In this document: positions 9,310-24,376 of the stretch, in pieces | How the letters are laid out: every line of letters begins with the position of its first letter | Numbering within the stretch: the stretch's first letter is position 1 | Origin: Geobacillus thermocatenulatus | GTDB taxonomy: Bacteria; Bacillota; Bacilli; Bacillales; Anoxybacillaceae | NCBI RefSeq assembly: GCF_002217655.1 | Contig: NZ_NEWK01000002.1 | Span: forward strand, 1 to 39,163 | Direction: 5' to 3' | DNA: 39,163 nucleotides | Made by a program: the position numbers and the translations under genes | The notes under the pieces: generated by a model | What the model was told of the DNA's origin: nothing | Seen by the model: the letters and a program-made list of their open reading frames with translations, nothing else | Database searches by the model: none

Positions 9310-9477
9310 TGTCGTCGACCTCCAATCGTGCAAAAATCCCGGGGGATCGACGACAATGTTTTTTTGCGTCAAAATCCTACAAACAACACGGCTGAACGGT
9401 ATTGACAGAATTTTTGAAACGTGATATTCTGAAAACAACTCAGAGAGAAAAAGCTTGATTTGATGCGTATGGTTTGG
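9310..9477 (+). promoter_or_regulatory. CRISPR leader 1
   Basis: A 168-bp leader with the same length as leader 2 (20920-21087) and only about 21 mismatches by hand alignment. It starts with an inverted repeat TGTCGTCGA (9310-9318) / TCGACGACA (9347-9355) that encloses a C-rich/G-rich pair and is followed by seven T. A promoter TTGACA (9402-9407), 17 bp, TATTCT (9425-9430) points into the array, giving a start near 9437, about 40 bp before the first repeat. The most conserved parts are the inverted repeat, the promoter and the AAAGCTTGATT block near the first repeat, where adaptation factors would be expected to act. Confidence 0.88.
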
Positions 9478-12400
9478 GTTTTTATCGTACCTATGAGGGA
9501 TTGAAACTTTTTTGTGTAAAAAAAGCGGAGCTATCACTCCGCGTTTTTATCGTACCTATGAGGGATTGAAACCATCAAACTGGGAAAACCAAAAAAGCGT
9601 TACTTGATAGTTTTTATCGTACCTATGAGGGATTGAAACCAAAAATATATTACAATAATCATGAAATAAAAGAAAAGGTTTTTATCGTACCTATGAGGGA
9701 TTGAAACATGTAAAACATGCCCCCTATATGCTTTTCAATTGCCCTGAGTTTTTATCGTACCTATGAGGGATTGAAACTAATTTTATTATTCCCAACCTGC
9801 CAACCGTTTCCGGTTTTTATCGTACCTATGAGGGATTGAAACATTTTTTCACGTCTGAATATCCAATTAGCTTCATGTGTTTTTATCGTACCTATGAGGG
9901 ATTGAAACCAATGCAAGCCATTTCGCTATTTTCTGCGTTGTTAGTTTTTATCGTACCTATGAGGGATTGAAACTTGTAGTATCAGACAGCGGCGCTGAAC
10001 CGCTGGCGTTTTTATCGTACCTATGAGGGATTGAAACAAAGTTCAATACCAGCACCAAGGCGCAATAGCTTTGGTTTTTATCGTACCTATGAGGGATTGA
10101 AACATAATTGCGCCTCCGCCTCGATTTCTTCCCGTGTGTGTTTTTATCGTACCTATGAGGGATTGAAACGTAAAGGCACACTCTCGGCAGGCGGAAGTGA
10201 AGTGGTTTTTATCGTACCTATGAGGGATTGAAACGTAAAGGCACACTCTCGGCAGGCGGAAGTGAAGTGGTTTTTATCGTACCTATGAGGGATTGAAACA
10301 GAGATCCATCCAGCAATTTGCTCCTCATCTACTCCAGTTTTTATCGTACCTATGAGGGATTGAAACTAATATTCAAAATCTTCTGCTGCCACGATGAAAC
10401 TGGTTTTTATCGTACCTATGAGGGATTGAAACATTTTTTCGTTCCGAATCTTTTTGGCGACTTCGGGTTTTTATCGTACCTATGAGGGATTGAAACCCGC
10501 AAGGGAATGGTAAACTCCCGCCGCGACGGCCGTTTTTATCGTACCTATGAGGGATTGAAACGATATTATTTTTGAGGGGTATAACGCGTTTAAGACTGTT
10601 TTTATCGTACCTATGAGGGATTGAAACTGGGGTCATGGTTTCGTGCATATAAGAGCGATAGAGTTTTTATCGTACCTATGAGGGATTGAAACTTTTGTTA
10701 ATGGTGCTTATGTTTTTAGGGCTGTGAGTTTTTATCGTACCTATGAGGGATTGAAACCCTCGTCTATTTCCTGCTCAACAAAGCCATCACGCGTTTTTAT
10801 CGTACCTATGAGGGATTGAAACAGTCCGATCAGGTTGTCCAAGTCGAGCTCAATGACAGCGTTTTTATCGTACCTATGAGGGATTGAAACCCGAAAAGAT
10901 TTGATAATCCTTCACCGCTACGACAAGTTTTTATCGTACCTATGAGGGATTGAAACTCGCGTGTCGCAAGTTGATTCCGATTTCGGTACGGTGTTTTTAT
11001 CGTACCTATGAGGGATTGAAACTCCTTCTCTCTTTAAGGACTCGCTGGCGTCCTTTCTGTTTTTATCGTACCTATGAGGGATTGAAACACACACCGAGGG
11101 AACAGGCATGACACAAGATATTCCGTTTTTATCGTACCTATGAGGGATTGAAACCTTCAGCAAGTTCTTGTTGATACTGTGTCACAAGGTTTTTATCGTA
11201 CCTATGAGGGATTGAAACACTGTTGCGATGACGCGCTTCTTGTCGTCAATAATCTTGTTTTTATCGTACCTATGAGGGATTGAAACTGACGAATGGTCGA
11301 TCCCATGCGCTCGCTCAACGGTTTAGTTTTTATCGTACCTATGAGGGATTGAAACATTTTTCGTCAAATGTTATTTTTTTGTAGATTACTTGTTTTTATC
11401 GTACCTATGAGGGATTGAAACTCGAGAATTGCGAGTTGAGCGAAGAAATCGCGAGCTTAGTTTTTATCGTACCTATGAGGGATTGAAACCGTTGGTCGGA
11501 GGCGGCATATTGATTATTCTTTATGCGTTTTTATCGTACCTATGAGGGATTGAAACTAAAATAAGATACCTGCAATTCCACACATAGGCTTGTTTTTATC
11601 GTACCTATGAGGGATTGAAACTGACGATCACTTTCCCACCGTCAACCGCTATGACGTTTTTATCGTACCTATGAGGGATTGAAACTCCCAGCGCACGCTC
11701 GGATTCATCACGCGCGGAACAGTTTTTATCGTACCTATGAGGGATTGAAACACAGCTCGAACGCTTTCTCTGACACGTTGCATTCCGTTTTTATCGTACC
11801 TATGAGGGATTGAAACTCGCTTGACTGACGTTGCCGTTGAAAATATATGACTCGGTTTTTATCGTATCCTATGAGGGATTGAAACCCAGCCTAAATCGCG
11901 ACTTGGCCTATTATGTTGGGTTTTTATCGTACCTATGAGGGATTGAAACAAAAGTGAAGCACATCGGATAGCTCCTCAAAATAGCTGCGTTTTTATCGTA
12001 CCTATGAGGGATTGAAACATTCCAACAAAAACACGGCGTATTGCTCCCATGTCGTTTTTATCGTACCTATGAGGGATTGAAACTTTTTCTATCGCCGGTC
12101 TCAATATAACCGCTTTTCGTTTTTATCGTACCTATGAGGGATTGAAACTATAACACTTTTGCATATGTAGATGTCATGGTGATCGGTTTTTATCGTACCT
12201 ATGAGGGATTGAAACTATTCATAAAGAGCTTTTACTTCATTCATATTAAGTTTTTATCGTACCTATGAGGGATTGAAACAGTTTTGTTCCCGTCTTCTCG
12301 ATCCCTCCCGAGTTTGTTTTTATCGTACCTATGAGGGATTGAAACGCGCTAATCGCCGATAAACTATTAACGTTCAGCTTAGTTTTTATCGTACCTATGA

Positions 12401-13088
12401 GGGATTGAAACTTGTGCAATTTGTTGTAATTCAGTAATTACATTTCGCCAGTTTTTATCGTACCTATGAGGGATTGAAACCATCGAATGGTTAGAAAGAA
12501 ATGACAAAGGCGCTATGGTTTTTATCGTACCTATGAGGGATTGAAACGTTTCCATATTTCTCAACCAGAGAGCGAATCGAATCGTTTTTATCGTACCTAT
12601 GAGGGATTGAAACAACCGCGTCATCCCCGACGCGGCGGCGGGATAGAGGGTTTTTATCGTACCTATGAGGGATTGAAACTTCACCAAAAGACAAGACAAC
12701 GAACAACGAGCGGGTTGTGTTTTTATCGTACCTATGAGGGATTGAAACGTTTACGCCGTAATATCGCTCTCCCATGTATTTCGAGTTTTTATCGTACCTA
12801 TAAGGGATTGAAACTCTTGGAACTGTGGCAAAAAGCATTAGTTGCCGCAACGTTTTTATCGTACCTATGAGGGATTGAAACCGTATAACCCATATAAATA
12901 CAGTAGCTTTGTAACGTATGAGTTTTTATCGTACCTATGAGGGATTGAAACTATTTTTCATTCAAACGAATAAAATGAAAAACATTAGTTTTTATCGTAC
13001 CTATGAGGGATTGAAACACACATCTGTTCAACAGTTAAATCACGTGGTACAGGAATACATTTTTATCGTATCTGTAGAGGACTGAAAC
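9478..13088 (+). CRISPR. CRISPR array 1: 55 repeats, 54 spacers
   Basis: The 30-bp repeat begins GTTTTTATCGTACC and ends TATGAGGGATTGAAAC; the last eight bases ATTGAAAC are the usual 5' handle in type I-B and some type III systems. Spacers are about 34-40 bp. Spacers 11 (10170-10204) and 12 (10235-10269) are identical. Repeat 37 (11855-11885) is 31 bp because of an extra T (GTATCCTATG). Repeat 51 (12785-12814) has TATAAGGG. The last repeat (13059-13088) is degenerate, ending TGTAGAGGACTGAAAC, which sets the trailer end. Counts come from reading each repeat by hand. Translations of the array on either strand are artefacts. No cas gene adjoins it. Confidence 0.98.
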
Positions 13089-13186
13089 ACTACAGTACCG
13101 TACAACATTTTCCCTCTCCGATGCAGGAGTTTCCGTCTGTACTTGCGAATGGATATACTGGAACACGTTCAAAGAGAGGTGATCAA

Positions 13187-14026
13187 ATGGCCATTGATCA
13201 TGACCGATTGTTCAAAGAGCTGATTCAAACGTTCTTCGAAGAGTTTCTTCTCCTCTTTTTCCCCGACATGCACGAACACATTGATTTCCGCCATTTGTCC
13301 TTCCTGTCCGAAGAACTGTTCACTGATGTCACGGCAGGTGAAAAATACCGCGTCGATCTATTGGTCGAGACGAAGCTGAAAGGGGAAAATGGGCTGATCA
13401 TCGTTCATGTGGAGAACGTTCCGATCGCTGTCTTCAGCCATGATGCCCTTCGCGAGGAACCATCCGTGTTCTCAATCGCGTTTCCCTTTGGCGACGTGCT
13501 GCAGTTTCGCTTTTTCCCCGTAGAGCTGCGCAAGAAACATTGGAGAGACTACATCCGGCATGACAATCCGATCGCGGCTGCCCTCCTTGGCAAAATGGGG
13601 TATACTGAAAGTGAGAAAGTCGAGTTGAAAAAAGAGTGTTTGCGCATGTTGGTTCGATTGGAGCTGGATGAGGCGAGGCAGCGGCTCTTGTTGGGCTTTT
13701 TTGAAACATATGTGAAGCTGTCGGAGGAGGAAGAGCAACAACTGCAAAGAGAGGTGAAGGCGATGGAAACGAAAGAAAGAGAAAAAGTGTTGGAGCTGAT
13801 CATTTCCTATGAGCAAAAGGGAAGGAAAGAGGGATTGGAAGAAGGAATAAAACGCGGGATTCAACAAGGAATCCAGCAAGGAATGAAGCAAGGAATGAAA
13901 CAAGGAATGAAACAAGGAATGAAACAACTGATCCGCAACATGGCGCGCAAAGGAATGACGGTGGAAGACATTGCCCGGTTGGTGGATCTTCCAGAGGAAG
14001 ATGTTTGGGAATTGCTTGAAGAGTAA
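13187..14026 (+). CDS. Rpn-like PD-(D/E)XK-family protein, copy 1 with motif deletion
   Basis: A 279-residue member of the Rpn/YhgA-like family (putative recombination-promoting nucleases, often labelled transposase or cytosolic protein). It starts at ATG 13187 behind AGAGGTGAT, giving MAIDHDRLFKELIQTFFEEF; the 22 in-frame upstream codons look non-coding. The nuclease core begins with Asp57 in YRVDLLVETK, but after Glu76 (VHVE) the sequence jumps to NVPIAVFS. Against copy 2 this is a net loss of 27 residues, including the Gln of the E-x-Q motif, so catalysis is doubtful. The C-terminus has a run of G-I/M-K/Q-Q-G units; four 12-bp repeats (ggaatgaaacaa type) occupy 13880-13927. The gene lies 98 bp past the last CRISPR repeat, as does its paralogue at array 2. 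Confidence 0.85.
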   Translation: MAIDHDRLFKELIQTFFEEFLLLFFPDMHEHIDFRHLSFLSEELFTDVTAGEKYRVDLLVETKLKGENGLIIVHVENVPIAVFSHDALREEPSVFSIAFPFGDVLQFRFFPVELRKKHWRDYIRHDNPIAAALLGKMGYTESEKVELKKECLRMLVRLELDEARQRLLLGFFETYVKLSEEEEQQLQREVKAMETKEREKVLELIISYEQKGRKEGLEEGIKRGIQQGIQQGMKQGMKQGMKQGMKQLIRNMARKGMTVEDIARLVDLPEEDVWELLEE

Positions 14027-14406
14027 TGGAATCCAATACAAAAGGCGGCCATTTAACGAGGACAGTTGGCGGCGGCAAAAGAGGCAGATGAAATCACTGA
14101 TTCGTAAGTGATCGATTGTAGAAAACGGATGATCGTCCGGTCACATGAAAGAGGAGGAACAAAAATCAGAAAGTATGTACCGTGCCAACGTTTTATGCAC
14201 CGTCGGCCTTGAAAGGCAGGCGGCCTTTTTTTGTTATGGGGCTCCGGCGTTCCGCTAGGCGTCTTGGCCATATGAGATCATGTCGGCTATATGTCCATGA
14301 ACAAAATGCACAAAATTCATTTTATTTTCAAAAACTTCACACTCATCCCACAGCATGGTAAGGTTGTGATTGAAAACGTTATCAAAAACAAGGGGGCAAG
14401 GGAGAA
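14027..14406 (+). other. Gene-free spacer before tctC
   Basis: No supported gene. A perfect-looking ribosome site AGGAGG (14152-14157) is followed seven bases later by ATC, opening a 15-codon frame that ends at TGA inside a hairpin. ATC starts are so rare that this is not called a gene, though it could be a degraded leader peptide. GGCCTTGAAAGGC and AGGCGGCC followed by seven T (about 14199-14231) form a probable weak terminator. An AT-rich stretch (14301-14335) precedes the cre site and may hold the response-regulator target. Confidence 0.45.
14371..14384 (+). promoter_or_regulatory. cre site upstream of tctC
   Basis: TGAAAACGTTATCA fits the CcpA consensus TGWAANCGNTNWCA at every position. 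It lies 22 bp before the tctC ATG, where bound CcpA would block transcription. This indicates carbon-catabolite repression of the transporter. Confidence 0.75.
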
Positions 14407-15447
14407 ATGAAGAAAACGAAATGGTGGGGATTGCTCGCCGCAGGGATGATGACACTGGCTTTGGCGGCCTGTGGGGGCAATGAATCGGCAGGGTCGAAAT
14501 CATCCGGTTCGAACTCTGGCTCATCGGCCTCAAACTATCCGACGAAGCCGATTACGATTGTTGCTCCGTCTGGGGCGGGCGGCGGTTGGGATTTAACGGC
14601 CCGCGCCATTGTGAAAGTGCTCGATGAGACGGGGCTCGTCAAACAAACGATGACGGTCGAAAACAAACCGGGCGGCGGTGGGGCGGTTTTTATGGCTGAG
14701 TACGCCACCCAGGATGTCAAAAACGATTATAAGTTGTTTGTCAACTCGCCGCCGATTATCATCAACAACCTGAAAAAAGAAGGGAACAGCCCGTTCGGCT
14801 ACAAAGACACAACCCCACTCGCCCAGTTGACAAAAGACTTTGGCGCGATTGTCGTTAAAGCGGATTCGAAGTTTCAAACGTTGACCGACTTGCTGAACGC
14901 CATTAAGCAAAATCCGAAATCCGTCACCATTGCCGGAGGGTCGGCGCCAGGGTCGATGGACCACTTAGTGGCGATTTTGCCGATTTACAAATCCGGCATC
15001 GATCCAAAATCAGTTAAGTACGTTTCGTACGATGGCGGCGGAGAAGCGATGGCGGCGCTGCTTGGCGGCAATGCGGATGTGATTGCGACGGATGCGTCTT
15101 CGGTTGGCGAATATTTGAAAGCCGGCAAAGTGCGGGTGCTGGCGGTTTCCGCTCCGGAACGCCTCGGCGGAGTGCTGAAAGACATGCCGACGATGAAAGA
15201 GCTTGGCGTTGATGCCGAGTTTACGATTTGGCGCGGCGTGTTCGGGCCGAAGGAAATGTCTTCGGAAGCAAAAGCGTTTTGGGAAGAGACATTGAAAAAA
15301 CTGTCTGAGCATGAAAAATGGAAAGAAGAGCTGCAAAAACAAGGTTGGGAAGCAGAGTACCGCAATTCCGAAGAGTTTACGAAATTTTTACAAGAGCAAG
15401 AGCAGCAAGTCGGCGACCTGCTGAAGTCGCTTGGGATGCATAAATAA
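14407..15447 (+). CDS. tctC: Tripartite tricarboxylate transporter, lipoprotein receptor TctC
   Basis: A 346-residue extracellular solute receptor of the TctC/Bug family that hands a carboxylate to the TctAB membrane complex. The N-terminus is a lipoprotein signal, MKKTKWWGLLAAGMM followed by a LALAAC lipobox, with Cys22 lipidated, then a Ser/Gly linker. Family blocks are present: YPTKPITIVAPSGAGGGWD near residues 43-61, VENKPGGGGAVF near 83-94 and VSYDGGGEAMAALLGGNADV near 206-225. The second contains the NxPGxG loop that typically contacts the ligand carboxylate. A hairpin-T element lies between this gene and tctB, which would give more receptor than permease. The substrate is probably citrate or a related di/tricarboxylate, judged from the CitA-like sensor nearby; this is not proven by sequence. 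Confidence 0.92.
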   Translation: MKKTKWWGLLAAGMMTLALAACGGNESAGSKSSGSNSGSSASNYPTKPITIVAPSGAGGGWDLTARAIVKVLDETGLVKQTMTVENKPGGGGAVFMAEYATQDVKNDYKLFVNSPPIIINNLKKEGNSPFGYKDTTPLAQLTKDFGAIVVKADSKFQTLTDLLNAIKQNPKSVTIAGGSAPGSMDHLVAILPIYKSGIDPKSVKYVSYDGGGEAMAALLGGNADVIATDASSVGEYLKAGKVRVLAVSAPERLGGVLKDMPTMKELGVDAEFTIWRGVFGPKEMSSEAKAFWEETLKKLSEHEKWKEELQKQGWEAEYRNSEEFTKFLQEQEQQVGDLLKSLGMHK

Positions 15448-15453
15448 CTCGAG

Positions 15454-15478
15454 GGGGAAGAGTATTCTTCCCCTTTTT
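15454..15478 (+). terminator. Intercistronic attenuator between tctC and tctB
   Basis: A perfect 8-bp stem GGGGAAGA (15454-15461) / TCTTCCCC (15466-15473) with a GTAT loop is followed by five T. It lies 22 bp before the tctB ATG. Partial termination here would keep receptor mRNA above membrane-subunit mRNA. Confidence 0.75.
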
Positions 15479-15499
15479 CCAAAAGCGGGAGGGAAAGCG

Positions 15500-15955
15500 A
15501 TGAACAAAACGGCTGACCGTATCGCGGCGGTGGCGTTTTTGGCTTTGGGCGCTTTGTTTATGGTGGAAAGTTTGCGCATATCGAAAAGCGCCTACGGCAG
15601 CGCTGTCGGGCCGAATGTGTTTCCGTTTTTGCTTGGACTTGTGTTGGTTTTCTTAAGCATCAAACTGTTGTTGGAGACGAGACGTTATTCAGAGGCAACA
15701 AGCGAGAAACAGGCTAGGCAATATAAAAAGTTTCTTGTTATTTTCATCGCCGCCATTTTCTATGCGGGGCTGCTTGAAATGGTTGGATATGTGATCACGA
15801 CGTTTCTGTTTCTTGTGATTGGGTTTCAAACGATGGAAAAAGGGGCGCTGTGGAAATCGATCGCCCTTGCGGCTAGCTTTTCCCTCGGCGTATATGGCCT
15901 TTATGTGAAACTGCTGCAAGGAACATTGCCGAGCTGGCCGATTTGGTTCCAATGA
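15500..15955 (+). CDS. tctB: Tripartite tricarboxylate transporter, small membrane subunit TctB
   Basis: A 151-residue membrane protein with about four hydrophobic segments (near residues 8-25, 38-55, 77-100 and 118-138), the size and topology of TctB subunits. An in-frame extension upstream to 15431 covers the attenuator hairpin and has no ribosome site. ATG 15500 follows GGGAGGGAAAGCG and is chosen. TctB sequences are poorly conserved, so the call rests on topology and on its position between tctC and tctA (13 bp before the tctA ATG). It likely stabilises the TctA channel. Confidence 0.88.
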   Translation: MNKTADRIAAVAFLALGALFMVESLRISKSAYGSAVGPNVFPFLLGLVLVFLSIKLLLETRRYSEATSEKQARQYKKFLVIFIAAIFYAGLLEMVGYVITTFLFLVIGFQTMEKGALWKSIALAASFSLGVYGLYVKLLQGTLPSWPIWFQ

Positions 15956-15968
15956 AAGGAGGGGCATC

Positions 15969-17495
15969 ATGGACACACTATCGTTTTTGCTTGAGGGGTT
16001 TCAAACGGCGCTTCAGCCGCATAACTTGTTGTTTGCGTTTATCGGGGTGTTGATCGGCACGGCGGTCGGCGTGCTTCCTGGGATTGGGCCGATGAGCGGG
16101 GTGGCGCTGCTCATTCCGGTGACGGCGTCGATGACAGCGGGCTTGAGTCCCGAGCAGGCGGCCGCCAGTTCGATCATTTTGTTGGCAGGCGTCTATTACG
16201 GAGCGATGTACGGCGGGTCGACGACGTCAATTTTGTTAAACACGCCCGGGGAATCATCGTCTGTTGTCACGACGCTGGACGGCTATCAAATGGCGCGTCA
16301 AGGCCGGGCTGGGGCGGCGCTGGCGATTGCGGCGATCGGCTCGTTTGTCGCCGGGATTGTGTCGCTCATCGGCCTTGTATTATTAGCGGAGCCGCTGTCC
16401 AATGTCGCCTTGAAGTTCGGTCCGGCCGAGTATTTTTCGCTCATGCTGCTGGGGCTTGCCGCGGTGAGCGGCCTTGCCGGCAAGTCGATGACGAAAGCAT
16501 GGATCATGACCGTCTTTGGCCTGCTTCTTTCCACGATCGGGCTGGACAATGTCTCTGGCGTCGCACGCTTCACGTACAACATTTCCTATTTGTACGGGGG
16601 GCTGGAGTTTTTAACCGTAGCGGTCGGGTTGTTTGCGTTAGGGGAAGTATTCAAGTCCATTCTCCATAATGAGATGAACGACGGGGACATTGCCAAAATC
16701 GGGCGCATCTTGCCGACCAAATCGGACTTGAAAGAAAGCGCCGGCCCGATCGCCCGTGGGTCGCTGCTTGGGTTTTTCATCGGCGTGCTGCCGGGAGCCG
16801 GAGCGACGTTGGCCTCGTTTTTCTCTTATATTCTTGAAAAGAAAATCAGCAAACATCCAGAAAAATTTGGACAAGGGACGATCGCCGGCGTCGCGGCGCC
16901 CGAGTCAGCGAACAACGGCGCGTCTGGAGGCGCCATGATTCCGCTGTTGACGCTCGGGATTCCAGGGTCTGGGACGACGGCCATTTTGATGGGAGCGCTC
17001 ATTATGTACAACGTCCAGCCAGGTCCGCTATTGTTTGATGAACATCCGGCTGTCGCCTGGGGATTGATTGCGAGCATGTTTATCGGAAATGTGATGTTGT
17101 TAATTCTCAACATGCCGCTTGTGAAACTATTTGCGAAAATCATCCAAACACCGACGAAGTATTTGTTGCCGCTGATTATCGCCATTTCTATATTCGGTGT
17201 GTATGCGGTGCAAGTGACGACGTTTGACGTGTTTCTATTGTTGGCGTTTGGACTGCTCGGCTATTGGCTGGCGGAACACGACTACCCGCTTGCGCCTCTT
17301 GTATTGGGGCTTGTGCTGGGGCCAATGATTGAAAACAACATGCGCCGGGCGTTGACGGCATCCAACGGGGACTATCTCGTGTTCGTTGAAAAGCCGATTT
17401 CGCTCGTCTTGTTGGTCATCGCCTTGTTGTGGATTGCCGTGCCGTTTTTCATGAAATTACGAGGAAAAACCGTCATTGTCAATGAAGATATGTAA
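15969..17495 (+). CDS. tctA: Tripartite tricarboxylate transporter, large membrane subunit TctA
   Basis: A 508-residue integral membrane protein with many hydrophobic helices, the family's normal size. Family blocks include GTAVGVLPGIGPMSGVALLIP (residues 29-49), the YGGSTTSILLNTPGE loop near residue 80 and, in the second half, GVLPGAGATLASFFSY and a TLGIPGSGTTAIL block near residue 330. The two PGxGP/PGAG-type loops mark the internal repeat of the fold and likely line the transport path. The ATG follows AAAGGAGGGGC. With TctB it forms the cation-coupled permease served by the lipoprotein TctC. Confidence 0.95.
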   Translation: MDTLSFLLEGFQTALQPHNLLFAFIGVLIGTAVGVLPGIGPMSGVALLIPVTASMTAGLSPEQAAASSIILLAGVYYGAMYGGSTTSILLNTPGESSSVVTTLDGYQMARQGRAGAALAIAAIGSFVAGIVSLIGLVLLAEPLSNVALKFGPAEYFSLMLLGLAAVSGLAGKSMTKAWIMTVFGLLLSTIGLDNVSGVARFTYNISYLYGGLEFLTVAVGLFALGEVFKSILHNEMNDGDIAKIGRILPTKSDLKESAGPIARGSLLGFFIGVLPGAGATLASFFSYILEKKISKHPEKFGQGTIAGVAAPESANNGASGGAMIPLLTLGIPGSGTTAILMGALIMYNVQPGPLLFDEHPAVAWGLIASMFIGNVMLLILNMPLVKLFAKIIQTPTKYLLPLIIAISIFGVYAVQVTTFDVFLLLAFGLLGYWLAEHDYPLAPLVLGLVLGPMIENNMRRALTASNGDYLVFVEKPISLVLLVIALLWIAVPFFMKLRGKTVIVNEDM

Positions 17496-17500
17496 TAATA

Positions 17501-17556
17501 GAAAGAAAGGCTTTCTTCCTTAAATAGTTGGAGGATGGTCTTTCTTTTCATTTTTT
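17501..17556 (+). terminator. Possible terminator after tctA
   Basis: GAAAGAAAGG (17501-17510) can pair with CTTTCTTTTC around 17540-17549, and T-rich sequence follows. The stem is AT-rich and the loop large, so termination is uncertain; the sensor kinase ATG lies only 18 bp beyond. Confidence 0.35.
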
Positions 17557-17574
17557 CGTTTGGGGGACAGCACG

Positions 17575-19173
17575 ATGAAATTGCAAACAAGATTGATGAT
17601 GATCATTTGTTCGCTGCTTTTGTTTGTCATCGTGTTTCTTACGTTTTTATTCCAACATATGTTTGCTGAGACGCTCAAACAACAAATCGGCATGCGGGCG
17701 CTGAACGTGGCGGAAACCGTCGCGTCCACGCCGCTTGTGCGCGAGGCGTTCCGCGACCCCGATCCGTCCGTGCGCTTGCAGCCGTTTGCCGAATATATTC
17801 GCCGAAAGACAGGGGCGGAATACGTCGTCATCGGCAACCGCCAAGGAATCCGCTATGCTCACCCGCTGCCGGACCGGATCGGCAAGCCGATGGTCGGGGG
17901 CGACAACGGCGAGGTGCTCAAAGGCAAGGCCATTATTTCGGAGGCGGTTGGTTCACTCGGTCCAGCGATCCGCGGAAAAGCGCCGGTTTTGGATGAAAAC
18001 GGACATATGATCGGCATTGTTTCGGTCGGTTTTTTGCTAGAGGATATTCGACAAACGGTGTGGTCATATAGCCTGAAGATTTTTCTCTTCTCTGTTCTTG
18101 CCCTTTTGCTCGGAGCGGTGGGGGCCGTGGCGATCGCCAAGGCGGTGAAGAAATCGATTCATGGCCTTGAACCGGAAGAAATCGGTTTGCTCTACCAAGA
18201 AAAGCAAGCGATTTTAGAGGCGATTCGCGAAGGAATTGTGGCCATCAATCAAGAGGGAACGATTACAATGGTCAACCGAACGGCACTGAAGCTGCTTGGG
18301 TATGAGAACGAACGCGATGTGCTGGGAATGCCGATCTTGCAGCTTATTCCCCACTCGAGACTGCCTGAAGTCATTCGGACGGGGCAGGCGGAATTTGACG
18401 ATGAAATGGCGTTAGGTGAAGAAACGGTCATTGCAAATCGCATTCCGATTAAAGATAAAACGGGCCGCGTGATCGGAGCGGTGTCGACGTTTCGAAACAA
18501 ATCGGAATTGTATCGCTTGACCAAAGAGTTATCGCAGCTTCGCAGTTATGCCGATGCCTTGCGCGCGCAAACGCACGAATTTTCCAACAAGCTGTATTTG
18601 ATCTCTGGCCTGATTCAACTAGAATCATATGAGGAAGCGCTTGAACTGATCGCAAAAGAGACCGACTTGCAACAAAACATCGTTCGGTTTGTGATGAAGG
18701 AAATTCCCGATCCGATCATCGGCGGGCTGCTGATCGGCAAGTTCAATCGCGCCAACGAGCTGAAAATTGTGTTTGAGATTGATCGGGAAAGCAGTTTCCG
18801 TGATGTGCCGCCATGGATGGACCGGGACCATCTAGTAACCATTATTGGAAATGTAGTAGATAACGCCATGGAAGCCGTTCTCCATAACGGAAAGAAAGAG
18901 AAACGGGTGGCCGTTTTTTTGACTGATCTTGGCGATGATTTAATTATTGAGGTTGAGGATAACGGATTAGGCATTGACCCAGCTGTAGCGGAACGGATCT
19001 ACGAGCGCGGTTTTTCAACGAAGGCTGCCGGAGGGCGGGGGTATGGGCTTGATCTAGTGAACCGAGCGCTCGCGATGCTTGGCGGGCAAATCACCTGCCA
19101 GTCGAAACAGGAAGAGGGGACGGTGTTTACCGTCATGATTCCGAAAAGGCTGAACCGCGCCCATCTATGCTGA
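17575..19173 (+). CDS. CitA/DcuS-family sensor histidine kinase
   Basis: A 532-residue membrane kinase of the carboxylate-sensing CitA/DcuS group. Transmembrane helix 1 is at about residues 9-27. The extracytoplasmic PAS-like (Cache) domain spans about 35-160, with the TPLVREAF and YVVIGNRQGIRYAHPLPDRIG blocks. Transmembrane helix 2 is near 168-188. A cytoplasmic PAS domain follows (about 215-310, ILEAIREGIVAINQEG), then a dimerisation helix with the phosphorylated His334 in LRAQTHEFSNKLYLISGL, and a C-terminal ATPase with N box NVVDNAMEA and G boxes VEDNGLGID and GRGYGLDLV. ATG 17575 follows GGGGGACAGCACG. It lies directly downstream of tctA and upstream of its regulator, so it probably senses the carboxylate carried by TctABC. 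Confidence 0.93.
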   Translation: MKLQTRLMMIICSLLLFVIVFLTFLFQHMFAETLKQQIGMRALNVAETVASTPLVREAFRDPDPSVRLQPFAEYIRRKTGAEYVVIGNRQGIRYAHPLPDRIGKPMVGGDNGEVLKGKAIISEAVGSLGPAIRGKAPVLDENGHMIGIVSVGFLLEDIRQTVWSYSLKIFLFSVLALLLGAVGAVAIAKAVKKSIHGLEPEEIGLLYQEKQAILEAIREGIVAINQEGTITMVNRTALKLLGYENERDVLGMPILQLIPHSRLPEVIRTGQAEFDDEMALGEETVIANRIPIKDKTGRVIGAVSTFRNKSELYRLTKELSQLRSYADALRAQTHEFSNKLYLISGLIQLESYEEALELIAKETDLQQNIVRFVMKEIPDPIIGGLLIGKFNRANELKIVFEIDRESSFRDVPPWMDRDHLVTIIGNVVDNAMEAVLHNGKKEKRVAVFLTDLGDDLIIEVEDNGLGIDPAVAERIYERGFSTKAAGGRGYGLDLVNRALAMLGGQITCQSKQEEGTVFTVMIPKRLNRAHLC

Positions 19174-19222
19174 AAGAAAGCGCGGGTCTATGCATCACAA
19201 TATCTCGGAGGGAAGCAGAGGG

Positions 19223-19909
19223 ATGATTCGTGTACTCATTATTGAAGACGACCGCCGCATTGCGGAAATTAATCGGCGCTTTGTCGAGAAAGTGAGTGGT
19301 TATGAAGTGGTCGGCATCGCCACGAACGCTGAAGAGGCAAGGGAATTGACGGAGGTATTGCGGCCAGACATGTTGTTACTTGACGTCTATTTTCCCAATA
19401 TGAACGGCCTTTCGTTTTTGAAATGGGTGCGAGAGCGTTTTTCCGATATCGATATTATTATGATCACCGCAGCACGGGAAGTGGAGGCGCTGAAGCAAGC
19501 GCTGCATGGCGGAGTGTTTGATTACATTATCAAGCCGATTATGTTCGACCGATTCGTCGACACATTGCATCGATATAAAGAGTACTATGACAAAATGCAA
19601 CGGTGGGTGAAAGAGAAAGAGTGGATTGGCCAAGAAGAGGTTGATGCCTTAATGGGAAGAGAAGTGTCCGTTAAGGAACAGCCCATGTTGCCTAAAGGCA
19701 TTCAGCCGTTGACCTTAGAAAAAGTGTTGGCGGTTGTGAGACAGTGCCCGGAAGGCATCACCGCTGAAGAAGTGGGGCGGCAAATCGGCACGAGCCGCAC
19801 GACGGCTCGTCGTTACTTGGAGTATCTCGTCTCTGTCGGCCAGGTGACGGCCGATATTGCCTATGGATCCGTTGGGCGGCCGGAACGAGTTTACAAGAAG
19901 AAAATGTAG
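19223..19909 (+). CDS. CitB/DcuR-family response regulator
   Basis: A 228-residue two-domain regulator. Its receiver domain (1-120) has Asp9/Asp10, the phosphorylated Asp54 in LLLDVYFPNMNG, Thr near 82 (MITAA) and Lys near 105 (IIKPI). The C-terminal part (about 160-228) has a helix-turn-helix, ITAEEVGRQIGTSRTTARRY, typical of the CitT/DcuR group. A reading from ATG 19190 exists. ATG 19223 is preferred because GGAGGGA lies 9 bp before it and the protein then starts MIRVLIIEDD like the family. It starts 49 bp after the kinase stop and presumably activates the tct promoter on carboxylate sensing. Confidence 0.93.
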   Translation: MIRVLIIEDDRRIAEINRRFVEKVSGYEVVGIATNAEEARELTEVLRPDMLLLDVYFPNMNGLSFLKWVRERFSDIDIIMITAAREVEALKQALHGGVFDYIIKPIMFDRFVDTLHRYKEYYDKMQRWVKEKEWIGQEEVDALMGREVSVKEQPMLPKGIQPLTLEKVLAVVRQCPEGITAEEVGRQIGTSRTTARRYLEYLVSVGQVTADIAYGSVGRPERVYKKKM

Positions 19910-19968
19910 ATATGGATTTTCAAAAATGAAACATGCATTATATGGATAAAGAAAGAGAGGAGAGCGTC

Positions 19969-20904
19969 TTGGCTGTTTTTAGCGGCATTTTATTGCAAGT
20001 GATGGTTCCGATGTTATTGATTGTCGGCTTGGGGGCAGGGCTTCACCGCTTCTTTCATCTTGACCTCAATACGTTATCCAAATTGAACATGTACGTCCTG
20101 TTGCCGGCAGTCGCATTCATCAACGTGTATGACAGTGAGTTGAATGGAAAGGTGTTGGCGGCCATCTTAGAATTTCTCTTGTTGCAAAACAGCGGACTGA
20201 TCGTTTTGAGTATGATGATGGCCAAGTTGTTCAAATTAGAACGGAGTTTGTCAGCCGTATTTCAAAACACCATTGTGTTGAACAACTCAGGTAATTTCGG
20301 CATCCCGGTCAGTCAGCTTGTATTTCATCAACATCCGCTCGGGGCGACGATTCAAATTATGGTGACGATCTTTCAAAATTTCTTGACGAATACATATGGG
20401 GTATATCAGTTCGTATCCGGGAATGGAAAAAGGGAGAAATGGACTGCGGAGATATGGAAAAATCCCGTCCTTCACGCGCTGTTGCTCGGTGTGGTCTGTC
20501 GATGGCTTCACATCTCCATCCCATCATTTCTATGGGCGCCGCTTCAGCGGGTCGCCGATGCGTTTTTAGCCATCGCTCTCTTTACGTTGGGAGCGCAAAT
20601 CGCCTACGCCCGGTTTACTGCCTTGCCGCCGCTTGTGTATGTGAGTGTGCTTGGGCGCCTGATGGTGTCGCCGCTGTTGGCTGCGTCTTTGATCTTTCTA
20701 TTAGGAATGGATGGCGTGACGGCTCAAGCGTTGCTGATTGCCAGTTCGTATCCATGTTCACGCAATACGGCGCTGTACGCGCTCGAGTATGACTGCCACC
20801 CCGATTACGCCGCCCAGGCAGTGCTGGTGTCGACCTTGTTGAGCGCCATTACCGTGACAGGCACAGTATATGCGGCCCGCCTGCTGTTTCCGATTGGCGG
20901 ATGA
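19969..20904 (+). CDS. AEC (auxin efflux carrier) family permease
   Basis: A 311-residue membrane protein with about ten hydrophobic helices and the AEC-family landmarks LSKLNMYVLLPAVAF (near residues 34-48) and NTIVLNNSGNFGIPVSQLVF (near 103-122). The C-terminal ASSYPCSRNTALYALEYD replaces the more usual SAMPAA-type segment. Bacterial members carry malate, malonate or other organic acids. TTG 19969 follows GGAG at 6 bp and gives a membrane-entering N-terminus; the in-frame ATG 19933 would add 12 hydrophilic residues and lacks a good ribosome site. Its place behind a carboxylate sensor pair suggests carriage of a metabolically linked organic acid, possibly in exchange with the TctABC substrate. 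CRISPR leader 2 starts 15 bp after the stop. Confidence 0.87.
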   Translation: MAVFSGILLQVMVPMLLIVGLGAGLHRFFHLDLNTLSKLNMYVLLPAVAFINVYDSELNGKVLAAILEFLLLQNSGLIVLSMMMAKLFKLERSLSAVFQNTIVLNNSGNFGIPVSQLVFHQHPLGATIQIMVTIFQNFLTNTYGVYQFVSGNGKREKWTAEIWKNPVLHALLLGVVCRWLHISIPSFLWAPLQRVADAFLAIALFTLGAQIAYARFTALPPLVYVSVLGRLMVSPLLAASLIFLLGMDGVTAQALLIASSYPCSRNTALYALEYDCHPDYAAQAVLVSTLLSAITVTGTVYAARLLFPIGG

Positions 20905-20919
20905 AAACAGGGGGCAAGC

Positions 20920-21087
20920 TGTCGTCGACCCCCAATCGTGCAAAAATCCCGGGGGATCGACGACAATGTCTTTTCGCGTCAAACTCCTACAGCCAACGCA
21001 GCTAGACCGTATTGACAGAATTTTTGAAACGTGCTATTCTGAAAACAGCCAAAAGGGGAAAAGCTTGATTTTATGCGCATGGTTTTG
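20920..21087 (+). promoter_or_regulatory. CRISPR leader 2
   Basis: A 168-bp leader matching leader 1 in length without net indels. The inverted repeat TGTCGTCGA (20920-20928) / TCGACGACA (20957-20965) is retained at the same 28-bp separation, with a cleaner CCCCC/GGGGG inner pair, but the following T-run is interrupted (TCTTTTC). The promoter TTGACA (21012-21017), 17 bp, TATTCT (21035-21040) drives the array. Differences from leader 1 cluster at 20984-21006 and 21050-21059, between the conserved blocks. Confidence 0.88.
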
Positions 21088-23300
21088 GTTTTTATCGTAC
21101 CTATGAGGGATTGAAACCTCTTATGCTTCTCATATGCTTCTTTCGCTTTTTCGTTTTTATCGTACCTATGAGGGATTGAAACTACGTAAAACTGGATGTC
21201 CACGATTTTGACGCAGTCGTTTTTATCGTACCTATGAGGGATTGAAACCCTTTTACTCAAATGAGAAACCAAATCCGTCGACAAGTTTTTATCGTACCTA
21301 TGAGGGATTGAAACTACGTAAAACTGGATGTCCACGATTTTGACGCAGTCGTTTTTATCGTACCTATGAGGGATTGAAACTAATTTCGTTAAGTTTTATG
21401 TTCAGAATCAATTGTAGGTTTTTATCGTACCTATGAGGGATTGAAACATAAAGGAGAGGATTCTATTATGAAAAGCCTTGTGGTTTTTATCGTACCTATG
21501 AGGGATTGAAACTCGTTTTTCTTTTTCCTTTTTCGGCGACAAAATACACCGTTTTTATCGTACCTATGAGGGATTGAAACTTTTTACCGTAGAGGCGTTG
21601 ACAAGTGACCAATACGAGTTTTTATCGTACCTATGAGGGATTGAAACTCAAAAAACGGTTCGAGCCCATGAAGGAACACAGCTGGTTTTTATCGTACCTA
21701 TGAGGGATTGAAACACGCTAAAGACAGCTTAAAATATGGAGATTTTTATTGTTTTTATCGTACCTATGAGGGATTGAAACCTTTGAACGCCAACTTGAAA
21801 AATGTTACAATTTCTAGTTTTTATCGTACCTATGAGGGATTGAAACCTGGGTGTGGTTCGAGGAAGCCTTTGAAATCGAGACAGTTTTTATCGTACCTAT
21901 GAGGGATTGAAACCGTCCGATCGCAAACGAATATTAATTCGCTCATCTCGTTTTTATCGTACCTATGAGGGATTGAAACTAATCGGTCTAAATGCTCCTT
22001 GATAAAGACATTCGGCAGGTTTTTATCGTACCTATGAGGGATTGAAACACAGAAGAGCAAGTCAAGGCATTCCGAATTGCAGACAAGTTTTTATCGTACC
22101 TATGAGGGATTGAAACTTCATCGTGCAAAAAATCATGTTCCAGACCAAGGTCGTTTTTATCGTACCTATGAGGGATTGAAACTGAAACGACAAACATTCG
22201 GCAATTTCGCGTCACGACAGTTTTTATCGTACCTATGAGGGATTGAAACTCAAGTGGTAATTTTGGACCGGCTGAATTTTAGGATTCGTTTTTATCGTAC
22301 CTATGAGGGATTGAAACTTCAAATTTCATCACATTGTCTACATAACGAATCAGTTTTTATCGTACCTATGAGGGATTGAAACAAAAATTCGGCGTAATGC
22401 AGCACCTCGAAAACGCCGGTTTTTATCGTACCTATGAGGGATTGAAACAACGTACCGCCACGCCACCTTTCGGTTGCGTTTGCGTTTTTATCGTACCTAT
22501 GAGGGATTGAAACTTTCTTCGTTGGCTAGCGTTGGTCTTTCGGTGATGGTGGTTTTTATCGTACCTATGAGGGATTGAAACCCAGACGACCGGAAAGAAA
22601 GTCCGGTCGCTTCGAACTGTTTTTATCGTATGAGGGATTGAAACTCTTTCCAGAACGGGATAATTTGCTCGCTCGGAATCGTTTTTATCGTACCTATGAG
22701 GGATTGAAACTAAAGGGACGTCCGGAGCATCATGTGTCCAACTTTGTTTTTATCGTACCTATGAGGGATTGAAACAAACGAAAGTCATGACAATGTGACG
22801 AGGGTAACGAGTTTTTATCGTACCTATGAGGGATTGAAACTTAGCTTTTCCGCTTTTGATTGCAGATGTTGCTAACGTTTTTATCGTACCTATGAGGGAT
22901 TGAAACAATTTCAGTGCCAACTGTGTGATCAAATGGAATTTGGTTTTTATCGTACCTATGAGGGATTGAAACTACTTTTTTCTATTTGCTTTCGTACGGC
23001 ATTTCCGTTTTTATCGTACCTATGAGGGATTGAAACCCATCTGAACGTCAAGAAATCGACAACCTTGCCCGTTTTTATCGTACCTATGAGGGATTGAAAC
23101 AAAGATGACGATATCGTGATATTCAGTCATGACAATGAGTTTTTATCGTACCTATGAGGGATTGAAACAATTTACAGCCACTTTTGGCTTCTTTTGCGAC
23201 GTTGGTTTTTATCGTACCTATGAGGGATTGAAACCTTCATTCATGACGGCGCGCTTTTCATATTCTGCGAGTTTTTATCGTACCTATGAGGAACTGAAAC
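21088..23300 (+). CRISPR. CRISPR array 2: 34 repeats, 33 spacers
   Basis: The repeat is identical to that of array 1 (30 bp, GTTTTTATCGTACC...ATTGAAAC) and has the same orientation; spacers are about 34-39 bp. Spacers 2 (21183-21218) and 4 (21315-21350) are identical and separated by a different spacer. Repeat 24 (22619-22644) is only 26 bp, having lost CCTA or an equivalent four bases. The last repeat (23271-23300) ends GAGGAACTGAAAC. Spacer 6 (21448-21482) carries what looks like a ribosome site and ATG of its target gene. No cas gene is next to the array. Counts were made by hand. Confidence 0.98.
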
Positions 23301-23473
23301 TATTTCCCGCCACAGCTGAGCCGCCGCTGAGTTCAGCTTGTTTTACCGCTCGACATAGGAAAAGAGCAAATGCGAAATGGCGCATGCCCAAAAAACGTGG
23401 GAGGGATAAGGAGGAATTTGGACGCGAAGAGCGAATACAGTACGGTGAATCCGACAATGCAGGGAGGGAAAAT

Positions 23474-24376
23474 GTGGCCAAACAGCGCGTCGATCATGAC
23501 CGGTTGTTCAAAGAGCTGCTGTCGACGTTTTTCGAAGAGTTTTTGCTTCTTTTCTTTCCTCACGTGTACGAGCACATCGATGTTCACCATCTCTCTTTCC
23601 TCTCCGAAGAATTGTTCACCGATGTGACGGCTGGGGAAAAGCATCGCGTCGACTTGTTGGTCGAAACAAAGGTGAAAGGGGAAGACGGGCTCGTCATTGT
23701 CCATGTCGAGCATCAAAGCTACACCCAGCGGACCTTCCCCGAGCGAATGTTCCTCTACTTCAGCCGCTTGTTTCAAAAATACCGCCGCCGCATTCTCCCG
23801 ATCGCCATTTTCAGCTATGATGAACAATACGACGAACCTTCCTCATTGGTCATCCAGTTTCCGTTTTTGACCGTTCTCGACTTCCGCTTTTTAACGGTGG
23901 AGCTATGCAAACTGCCGTGGCGCGCGTACATCCGCCAGGACAATCCCGTCGCCGCTGCCTTGTTAAGCAAAATGGGGTATAATGAAGAGGAGAAAGTCGA
24001 CGTGAAAAAGGAATTTTTGCGCATGCTCGTCCGTCTCGAGCTGGATGAAGCGAAACAGCGGCTGTTGTTCGGTTTTTTCGAGACGTATTTGCGGCTATCC
24101 GAAGAGGAGGAAGCAAAACGGCGACACGAGGTGAGCCAAATGGAAACGAAGGAAGCAAAACGTGTGATGGAGCTCATCGTCTCATACGAACAGCGGGGGC
24201 TGGAAAAAGGAATCCAACAAGGAATCGAACAGGGGATGAAGCAAGGACGCCAACAAGGAATCGAGGAAGGGAAGCTCGACGTGGTGAAGAGAATGCTGGC
24301 GAAAGGGTACGATGTCGACACGATTCACGAACTGACCGGGCTGCCGGTCGAGACGATTGAGAAGGTGAAGAAGTAA
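23474..24376 (+). CDS. Rpn-like PD-(D/E)XK-family nuclease, copy 2 (intact motif)
   Basis: A 300-residue Rpn/YhgA-like family protein with the full nuclease core: Asp60 in HRVDLLVETK and Glu79-x-Gln81 in VHVEHQSYTQ, the E-x-Q variant of PD-(D/E)XK. A helical segment follows (RTFPERMFLYFSRLFQKY) that copy 1 has lost. The C-terminus holds G-x-x-Q-G repeats (GIQQGIEQGMKQGRQQG, about 258-274) and a short helical end, DTIHELTGLPVETI. The open frame reaches back into the array (23129), but that part is translated repeats. GTG 23474 follows AGGGAGGG and aligns with the copy 1 start. It begins 173 bp after the last repeat. DNA divergence from copy 1 is substantial (roughly a fifth to a quarter by eye), so the two are old paralogues. 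A role in DNA rearrangement or defence is inferred. Confidence 0.86.
   Translation: MAKQRVDHDRLFKELLSTFFEEFLLLFFPHVYEHIDVHHLSFLSEELFTDVTAGEKHRVDLLVETKVKGEDGLVIVHVEHQSYTQRTFPERMFLYFSRLFQKYRRRILPIAIFSYDEQYDEPSSLVIQFPFLTVLDFRFLTVELCKLPWRAYIRQDNPVAAALLSKMGYNEEEKVDVKKEFLRMLVRLELDEAKQRLLFGFFETYLRLSEEEEAKRRHEVSQMETKEAKRVMELIVSYEQRGLEKGIQQGIEQGMKQGRQQGIEEGKLDVVKRMLAKGYDVDTIHELTGLPVETIEKVKK

Follow-up and report, generated by a model that had tools for sequence, protein, structure and literature searches.

Toxin-antitoxin genes and clustered regularly interspaced short palindromic repeats (CRISPR) systems are known to meet in defence islands. Among the former, RpnL/RpnS has been described as a gene-within-gene toxin-antitoxin pair in which RpnS blocks RpnL, and protection against certain phages has been reported for an Rpn (Zhong et al. 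2023, PMC10327210; this and the other papers compared here are cited for their accessible portions). In CreTA, a toxin gene is set against CRISPR-like sequences with degenerate repeats, CreT being an RNA toxin and CreA a guide resembling CRISPR RNA (crRNA) (PMC9458426, PMC8501985, PMC10097628). Here, we analysed a window of 39,163 nucleotides from Geobacillus thermocatenulatus (NZ_NEWK01000002.1, the start of contig 2 of a two-contig genome of 3.56 Mb), in which two CRISPR arrays are each followed by an Rpn-like nuclease gene (rpn).

The rpn genes of these loci resemble RpnL/RpnS in their TIGR01784/PF04754 family, in a conserved D and E-x-Q, in a low ratio of nonsynonymous to synonymous substitution (dN/dS), in an internal start with a Shine-Dalgarno sequence and in variable four-residue repeats. 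Unlike the general clustering with defence genes described there (PMC10327210), they stand in fixed contact with CRISPR leaders and trailers. CreTA is likewise only partly comparable: here a protein is the candidate toxin and has a candidate antitoxin of its own, and none of the spacers compared below shows a guide-like match. The type I-B and III-B arrays of Parageobacillus thermoglucosidasius (PMC10551041) are alike in that repeats are common to both types and several arrays occur per genome; the accessible main text of that paper does not contain the words Rpn or transposase. In two Thermosynechococcus papers, the accessible parts deal with Rpn genes, which lie in tandem gene arrays, and with CRISPR systems at different points of the text. 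PMC9067536 nowhere uses the words leader, hairpin or Geobacillus, the review PMC12737573 does not contain Rpn, and our searches of the open-access literature showed no paper in which Rpn genes and CRISPR arrays are connected in such a manner.

Compared with a meeting in defence islands, a co-oriented contact in which one nuclease family adjoins arrays at either end, counted at about 15 places and partly copied as blocks, makes for a sharper link. We consider it probable that the two are independent, co-inherited defences: arrays with this leader would repeatedly have been joined to rpn genes of the RpnL/RpnS kind in fixed polarity, and the resulting blocks copied between sites. The contact offers a natural test of coupling between toxin-type and adaptive defences, and hints at how one genome can acquire many arrays that share a leader.

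Rpn genes adjoin both ends of arrays in a fixed orientation

The comparison covered 14 genomes of the genus (G000, the genome of the window, to G013), all of which have leaders (73 matches) and rpn genes (150 tblastn matches merged to 125 loci). Two leader matches, pieces without a leader start, were dropped, and 71 leader units were mapped. Of the 125 rpn loci, 41 touch an array unit (26 upstream, 14 downstream and one overlapping the leader), all 41 on the strand of the array, whereas uniform placement predicts 0.1 contacts over the 14 genomes. This is far more than the chance linkage that the original prediction had allowed for would give, and the enrichment of Rpn at arrays that it had proposed to look for is strong. 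Seen from the arrays, with limits of 120 bp upstream of the leader and 400 bp past the last repeat, an rpn or its C-terminal part precedes 26 of the 71 leaders at a distance of 18-63 bp and follows the last repeat of 15 units, co-oriented in either case, and 30 leaders have no contact at either end. The trailer, which had been taken for the linked end, is therefore linked indeed, but the leader is so at least as much.

When only rpn loci with a match of at least 230 residues were considered, 26 of 64 were in contact. Orthologous sites were counted in each species, which inflates the number of 41; it is also a lower bound, an extra contact being present in G. icigianus (L228) at an array whose leader is missing from the contig. 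The genome of the window itself holds seven full leaders, one leader remnant of 104 bp and ten rpn loci. Five of these loci are in contact with an array unit, two at the trailer (those in the window) and three upstream of a same-strand leader, where the rpn match, in one case a short fragment, ends 34-46 bp before the leader.

In other genera of the family, 66 places were compared (70 places with the leader motif minus four with three mismatches each). Five of these leaders have a same-strand rpn upstream, with the match ending 31-34 bp and the stop codon lying 25 bp before the leader, and none has a same-strand rpn downstream; at L144, a weak opposite-strand fragment lies 84 bp downstream. 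Among the best 80 Rpn loci from named genomes, 8 of the 48 within the family touch an array or the leader motif, as do none of the 32 outside it (the nearest relatives). In an ungapped scan of eleven non-adjacent rpn loci (L055 and L178-L187), which belong to the 84 loci of the genus without contact, neither a repeat (10 changes allowed) nor a leader motif (8 changes allowed) was found; the scan also missed the gapped leader edge of G012 described below, so faint remnants can escape it.

Contact places and copied blocks of rpn and leader

Places were joined by matching flanks of up to 2.6 kb. Upstream contacts occur at eight places in the genus (C, D, E, G, H, I, K and L, of which H, I, K and L are found in one genome each) and at three in other genera (M, N and O), and downstream contacts at five (A, B, C2, Q and E). 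The rpn of site E is on both lists, and C and C2 are the two ends of one site, which gives about 15 contact places overall. If these were independent, the chance of strand agreement would be about 2^-15. Several of the flanks hold metabolic genes rather than defence genes, among them those for mannitol dehydrogenase and tct, a transporter, an S9 peptidase with an MFS gene, UDP-glucose dehydrogenase and a histidine kinase. Cas6, Cas3, RAMP and TM1802 genes adjoin arrays. Site C lies beside a DUF3323/DUF2399 gene, which we take to be a Wadjet-type component.

Ordinary clustering in defence islands, in which rpn genes and arrays share hotspots with no specific joint, would agree with such a neighbour, with the location of C, G, C2 and Q in one region, and with the reported clustering of rpn with defence genes including Cas systems (PMC10327210, accessible part). 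However, shared hotspots would hardly produce the spacing observed: 41 loci are in contact and 41 of 41 are co-oriented, whereas the remainder comprises nine loci at 0.1-10 kb from a unit, 53 farther away and 22 on contigs without a unit. Moreover, sites A, B, D, E and M adjoin metabolic or signalling genes. We therefore regard mere clustering as unlikely.

The alignments point to copying of a block. At C, D and E, rpn and leader fall into one alignment of about 1.1-1.2 kb with 84-91% identity, which starts about 25-70 bp ahead of rpn and extends past the joint into the leader, and the non-coding joint is itself alike between C and D. The flanks differ, with the DUF3323/DUF2399 gene at C, the S9 peptidase and MFS gene at D and UDP-glucose dehydrogenase at E. 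The recurrence of this block of about 1.1 kb between unrelated flanks indicates that blocks were copied as units. To this extent, the movement as a unit that the original prediction had suggested is supported; an origin of the two units of the window from one duplication is not supported, as set out below.

One locus, L068 (site E in G002), has the full order leader-array-rpn-leader-array, with 2 repeats in the array ahead of rpn and 51 in the array behind the second leader. From trailer to rpn it can be aligned with site B, the match reaching back 148 bp before rpn, and from rpn to leader it aligns with C and D. At site B, part of an rpn is followed by a degenerate leader edge in G012, and a degenerate leader edge lies beside lacI in G004. 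In both cases the alignment starts at leader base 1 and outscores all 300 shuffles, narrowly for G012 (score 33 against a maximum of 31) and clearly for G004 (39 against 29). Three of four controls without a leader failed to beat the shuffles; the fourth, site B of G002, gave a weak match to another part of the leader, with 10 of 300 shuffles scoring as high. The simplest reading is that most sites would keep pieces of a former array-rpn-leader-array tandem.

Such a tandem might also be a compound immune locus, in which the expression or action of Rpn is tied to the arrays, for example because transcription from the leader promoter continues across the trailer. Abortive defence by Rpn would then set in when CRISPR immunity fails or is saturated, and the pair would be kept and copied as a unit. 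We hold this to be conceivable but rather unlikely. A further possibility is that the nuclease itself promotes recombination at leaders or repeats and in this way spreads or rearranges arrays. It would explain why blocks of rpn and leader recur at unrelated sites, why sites A and B are fused through an array in G001, and why a genome can have up to 8 leader matches. Nevertheless, the rpn beside the longer array of the window has a damaged nuclease core, multiplication is also seen for many leaders that no rpn touches (30 of 71 have neither contact), and the accessible part of PMC10327210 reports no sign of autonomous rpn transposition; an active role of Rpn in spreading arrays is thus quite improbable.

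Common descent of leaders and Rpn proteins

If the two units of the window had arisen by one duplication of a leader-array-rpn module, their leaders and Rpn proteins would be expected to have diverged together. This candidate was rejected, as the leaders are much closer than the Rpns. In the same genome, the leaders of sites A and B are 87.5% (G000, over the 168 bp of the window's pair), 91.6% (G007), 94.6% (G011) and 90.5% (G013) identical, against 65.2, 67.5, 69.4 and 68.2% for the Rpns. The Rpn at site A of G000 is 76.7-77.5% identical to three Rpns from other genera, and its leader is 76.3-81.3% identical to the leaders beside those three over 168 bp and 81.9-85.6% over the first 104 bp; one of the three loci has no array. 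The contrast between leaders is modest, yet the order of similarity is opposite for leader and Rpn. Judged by these identities, the Rpn clades would be older than the split of the leaders, or the leaders were exchanged.

In a tree of Rpns (43 rows, one of them, Q_dn_G001, a broken copy with a long branch), the labels leader-side, trailer-side and unattached need at least 10 changes, compared to a mean of 20.6 after shuffling. This indicates that the position of rpn relative to arrays changes, though not randomly. Leader and Rpn distances of the 26 leader-side units gave a Mantel r of 0.35 (p 0.003), and pairs from different sites an r of 0.31 (p 0.02).

Rpn genes resemble toxin-antitoxin genes

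The two Rpn proteins of the window are 65% identical and hence diverged, in agreement with the original prediction. Protein 2 passes TIGR01784 (75.5 against a cut-off of 52.1 bits) and PF04754 (26.4 against 21) and stays below the cut-off of PF12784 (24.0 against 27.4). Protein 1 is narrowly under the TIGR01784 cut-off (51.3 against 52.1) and is short of 27 nuclease-core residues, including Q82 of the E-x-Q motif, which orthologues elsewhere keep; from its sequence, Rpn 1 is probably nuclease-dead. D61, E80 and Q82, presumably the catalytic PD-(D/E)XK residues, are invariant across 14 aligned Rpn proteins including protein 2. The predicted Rpn model had a mean pLDDT of 70.6, and its best matches in the Protein Data Bank (PDB) had E values of 0.003-0.02 and low TM-scores; three of the first four fold matches, weak as they are, were McrBC entries.

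The motif GAGGTGA stands before the internal ATG in both genes of the window and in all 15 matches of a motif search among 21 coding sequences, the remaining six being unmatched by the search pattern. The C-terminal RpnS-like part has a variable number of four-residue repeats. The dN/dS of rpn was 0.06-0.17 in 16 of 17 pairs and 0.27 in one near-identical pair (dS 0.015); low values were also found at the unattached locus Z. Together, rpn genes look like RpnL/RpnS toxin-antitoxin genes under purifying selection.

These features bear on a CreTA-like guard, in which a crRNA-like trailer RNA with the degenerate repeat represses rpn, and loss of Cas or of the array frees the toxin. CreTA modules do exist, as described in the accessible parts of the papers cited above, and at trailers a degenerate last repeat lies directly upstream of a toxin-type nuclease gene. 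Spacer matches would be expected near that gene, but in 15 of 15 trailer-rpn units none exceeded chance in the first 330 bp past the trailer (exact matches of at least 8 bases and simple shuffles, which short or gapped pairing could escape). In addition, most contacts are upstream of the leader and no degenerate repeat was seen in most such loci, the rpn of site D is under purifying selection although 11 of its 12 units have 0-2 repeats, and Rpn carries its own putative antitoxin. A guard of this kind is accordingly very improbable. A scan of all 1277 spacers for a CreTA-like guide yielded candidates that were rejected, the two longest (20 nt) coming from a spacer inside its target and the other three measuring 14-15 nt.

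Two observations concern broken rpn copies. A relative of rpn 1 lies in two parts 38 kb apart in G000 (C1:1509999-1510550 and 1548252-1548491; L056 and L057), and the broken ends are the same bases as the ends of the 81-bp deletion of rpn 1. One of these ends holds a transposase start, presumably IS21-like. At site C, the leader-side rpn of four species (L081, L090, L100 and L107) has no nuclease part and retains an open frame of 123-127 codons with the C-terminal antitoxin-like part.

A proposed model of independent, co-inherited defences

Under the preferred reading of two independent defences inherited together, the fixed order would be rpn, 15-45 bp from its stop codon to the leader, leader, array, about 35-300 bp, and rpn. 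The one-sided forms at several sites, which share the junctions of L068, would probably be pieces of leader-array-rpn-leader-array tandems. Homologous recombination among the many copies of leader, repeat and rpn would be the most likely route by which blocks of rpn and leader came to be copied from one chromosomal site to another. Each rpn may act as an independent phage-defence nuclease that is checked by its own internal antitoxin, and would be co-inherited with the array as a second defence rather than depend on it. In the window, rpn genes that are old and diverged would then have been paired separately with younger leaders, or the two units would reflect a later exchange of leaders between sites.

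Several points weigh against this reading. The majority of rpn loci (84 of 125, including the 22 on contigs without a unit) are not in contact with an array. The contact places are not fully independent, since C, G, C2 and Q belong to linked parts of a single defence region, and the identity of sites was judged by flanks in partly fragmented assemblies. Leader and rpn distances correlate weakly, and the agreement of leader and Rpn trees that the original prediction had suggested as a check is thus seen in part. No ends and no target-site duplications were established for the copied blocks, the duplications not having been searched for systematically. Finally, the function of Rpn at these loci is assigned by homology, a sequence search of the PDB found no relative of Rpn, and the fold search gave no match at E <= 0.001.

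The two units of the window and their sites

Both units are on the plus strand and have the order that had been predicted for them, namely a leader of 168 bp, an array, a degenerate last repeat and rpn (Table 1). The arrays are built on the same 30-nt repeat and show regular repeats, unique spacers (few occur twice) and a leader, as CRISPR arrays do. An ungapped scan counted 54 and 33 repeats, and two copies with small indels raise the totals to those given in the table. In an Rfam scan, only the repeat was matched, as CRISPR-DR2 on the minus strand (49.4 bits), and the leader hairpin was unmatched. The next same-strand gene after array 1 is rpn 1, which starts with ATG 98 bp past the last repeat and has an additional in-frame ATG at 13121; after array 2 it is rpn 2, which starts with GTG at a distance of 173 bp. 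Unit 1 is flanked by the mannitol dehydrogenase gene (mtlD) and tct transporter genes, and unit 2 by a gene for membrane transport on one side and, on the other, a lacI-type gene belonging to a sugar-acid region.

Table 1 Features of the two leader-array-rpn units in the window
Feature	Position	Strand	Details
Leader of unit 1	9310-9477	+	168 bp; homologous to 20920-21087
Inverted repeat, 5' edge of leader 1	9310-9355	+	strong hairpin, -24.9 kcal/mol, z -3.57
Sigma-70-like promoter inside leader 1	9402-9430	+	TTGACA-17-TATTCT; same in leader 2
CRISPR array 1	9478-13088	+	55 repeats, 54 spacers
Degenerate last repeat, array 1	13059-13088	+	7 changes; reads ACTGAAAC
rpn 1 (P1 clade)	13187-14026	+	81-bp in-frame deletion at about 13416/13417; C-terminal RpnS-like part intact
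Putative internal RpnS antitoxin of rpn 1	13763-14023	+	87 aa; ATG behind AGAGAGGTGA; by analogy with PMC10327210
Leader of unit 2	20920-21087	+	168 bp; inverted repeat 20920-20965; promoter-like 21012-21040
CRISPR array 2	21088-23300	+	34 repeats, 33 spacers
Degenerate last repeat, array 2	23271-23300	+	2 changes; reads ACTGAAAC
rpn 2 (P2 clade)	23474-24376	+	intact; D61 and E80-x-Q82 present
Putative internal RpnS antitoxin of rpn 2	24140-24373	+	78 aa; ATG behind GAGGTGA

The T-to-C change shared by the two last repeats was correctly noted in the original prediction, both copies having the same reading, but it is a poor sign of shared origin. Although the change is present in the last scanned repeat of 5 of 13 arrays followed by rpn (with at least 3 repeats) and of none of 30 others, a tally in which some arrays stop at a contig end, it is confined to sites A and B and does not occur in all species there, and therefore says little about common descent.

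Site A carries leader, array and rpn in 6 of the 14 genomes (G000, G004, G007, G009, G011 and G013) and an array without rpn in two (G012, and G001, where the right flank is that of site B). One genome (G006, in which mtlD was also not found) has rpn without leader or repeats. The site is empty in the remaining five (G002, G003, G005, G008 and G010), with a gap of 224-389 bp between mtlD and tctC. The two arrays without rpn have a different type of leader, which forms its own clade (SH-aLRT 100 in a quick tree), so leader type and rpn go together at this site. The oldest spacers at site A are common to G000 and G009, and likewise to G007 and G011, and to G013 bar one base, which shows this to be an old array passed on by inheritance. 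The leader forms the left edge of the insert, whose right edge is undefined.

At site B, five genomes carry leader, array and rpn (G000, G003 with 2 repeats, G007, G011 and G013). Leader remnants are present in G005, together with 75 bp of rpn, and in G009, and G010 has a leader without a detected array. The degenerate remnants of G004 and G012 were described above. In G002 the site holds 1.9 kb of other sequence, in G008 it is empty, in G001 it is joined to site A, and for G006 no flank was found. The junction in G001 (L063, on contig C59) consists of the left flank of site A and the right flank of site B connected by one array of 31 scanned repeats, an arrangement that recombination between the two arrays would give.

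Leader anatomy and position

A core motif of 38 bases within the leader was found in 39 of 41 genomes of the family, and a reversed control in none. The hairpin at the leader edge is followed by seven T and is terminator-like; a scan for terminator patterns was restricted to short loops and does not list it. In both leaders of the window the loop is conserved as well, beyond what a terminator needs. Because of this conservation, a protein may bind the hairpin.

A terminator in this position suggests another explanation for the contacts upstream of leaders, namely that hairpin and T run allow arrays to settle behind any same-strand gene. Among the 137 units of the genus and the other genera, six had no upstream open reading frame (ORF) to be considered, and in 117 of the other 131 the closest upstream ORF shares the strand of the array. 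Of 103 units with an array-strand ORF and no rpn, 43 have the upstream stop codon 5-42 bp before the leader, many of these ORFs being cas genes, with orthologues among the units. Furthermore, the insert at site A lies, as read by eye, between the mtlD stop codon and a terminator-like hairpin that is retained at empty sites. Such a position effect is nonetheless difficult to reconcile with the frequency of one gene family: with about 9 rpn loci per genome, rpn is the upstream neighbour of 26 of 71 leaders, and trailer contacts stay unexplained. We judge it highly improbable as the cause of the contacts, for which the joining of independent, co-inherited defences remains our preferred explanation.

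One further hairpin was observed within array 1. The leader-proximal spacer (9508-9542) can form a hairpin that scores as terminator-like on both strands.

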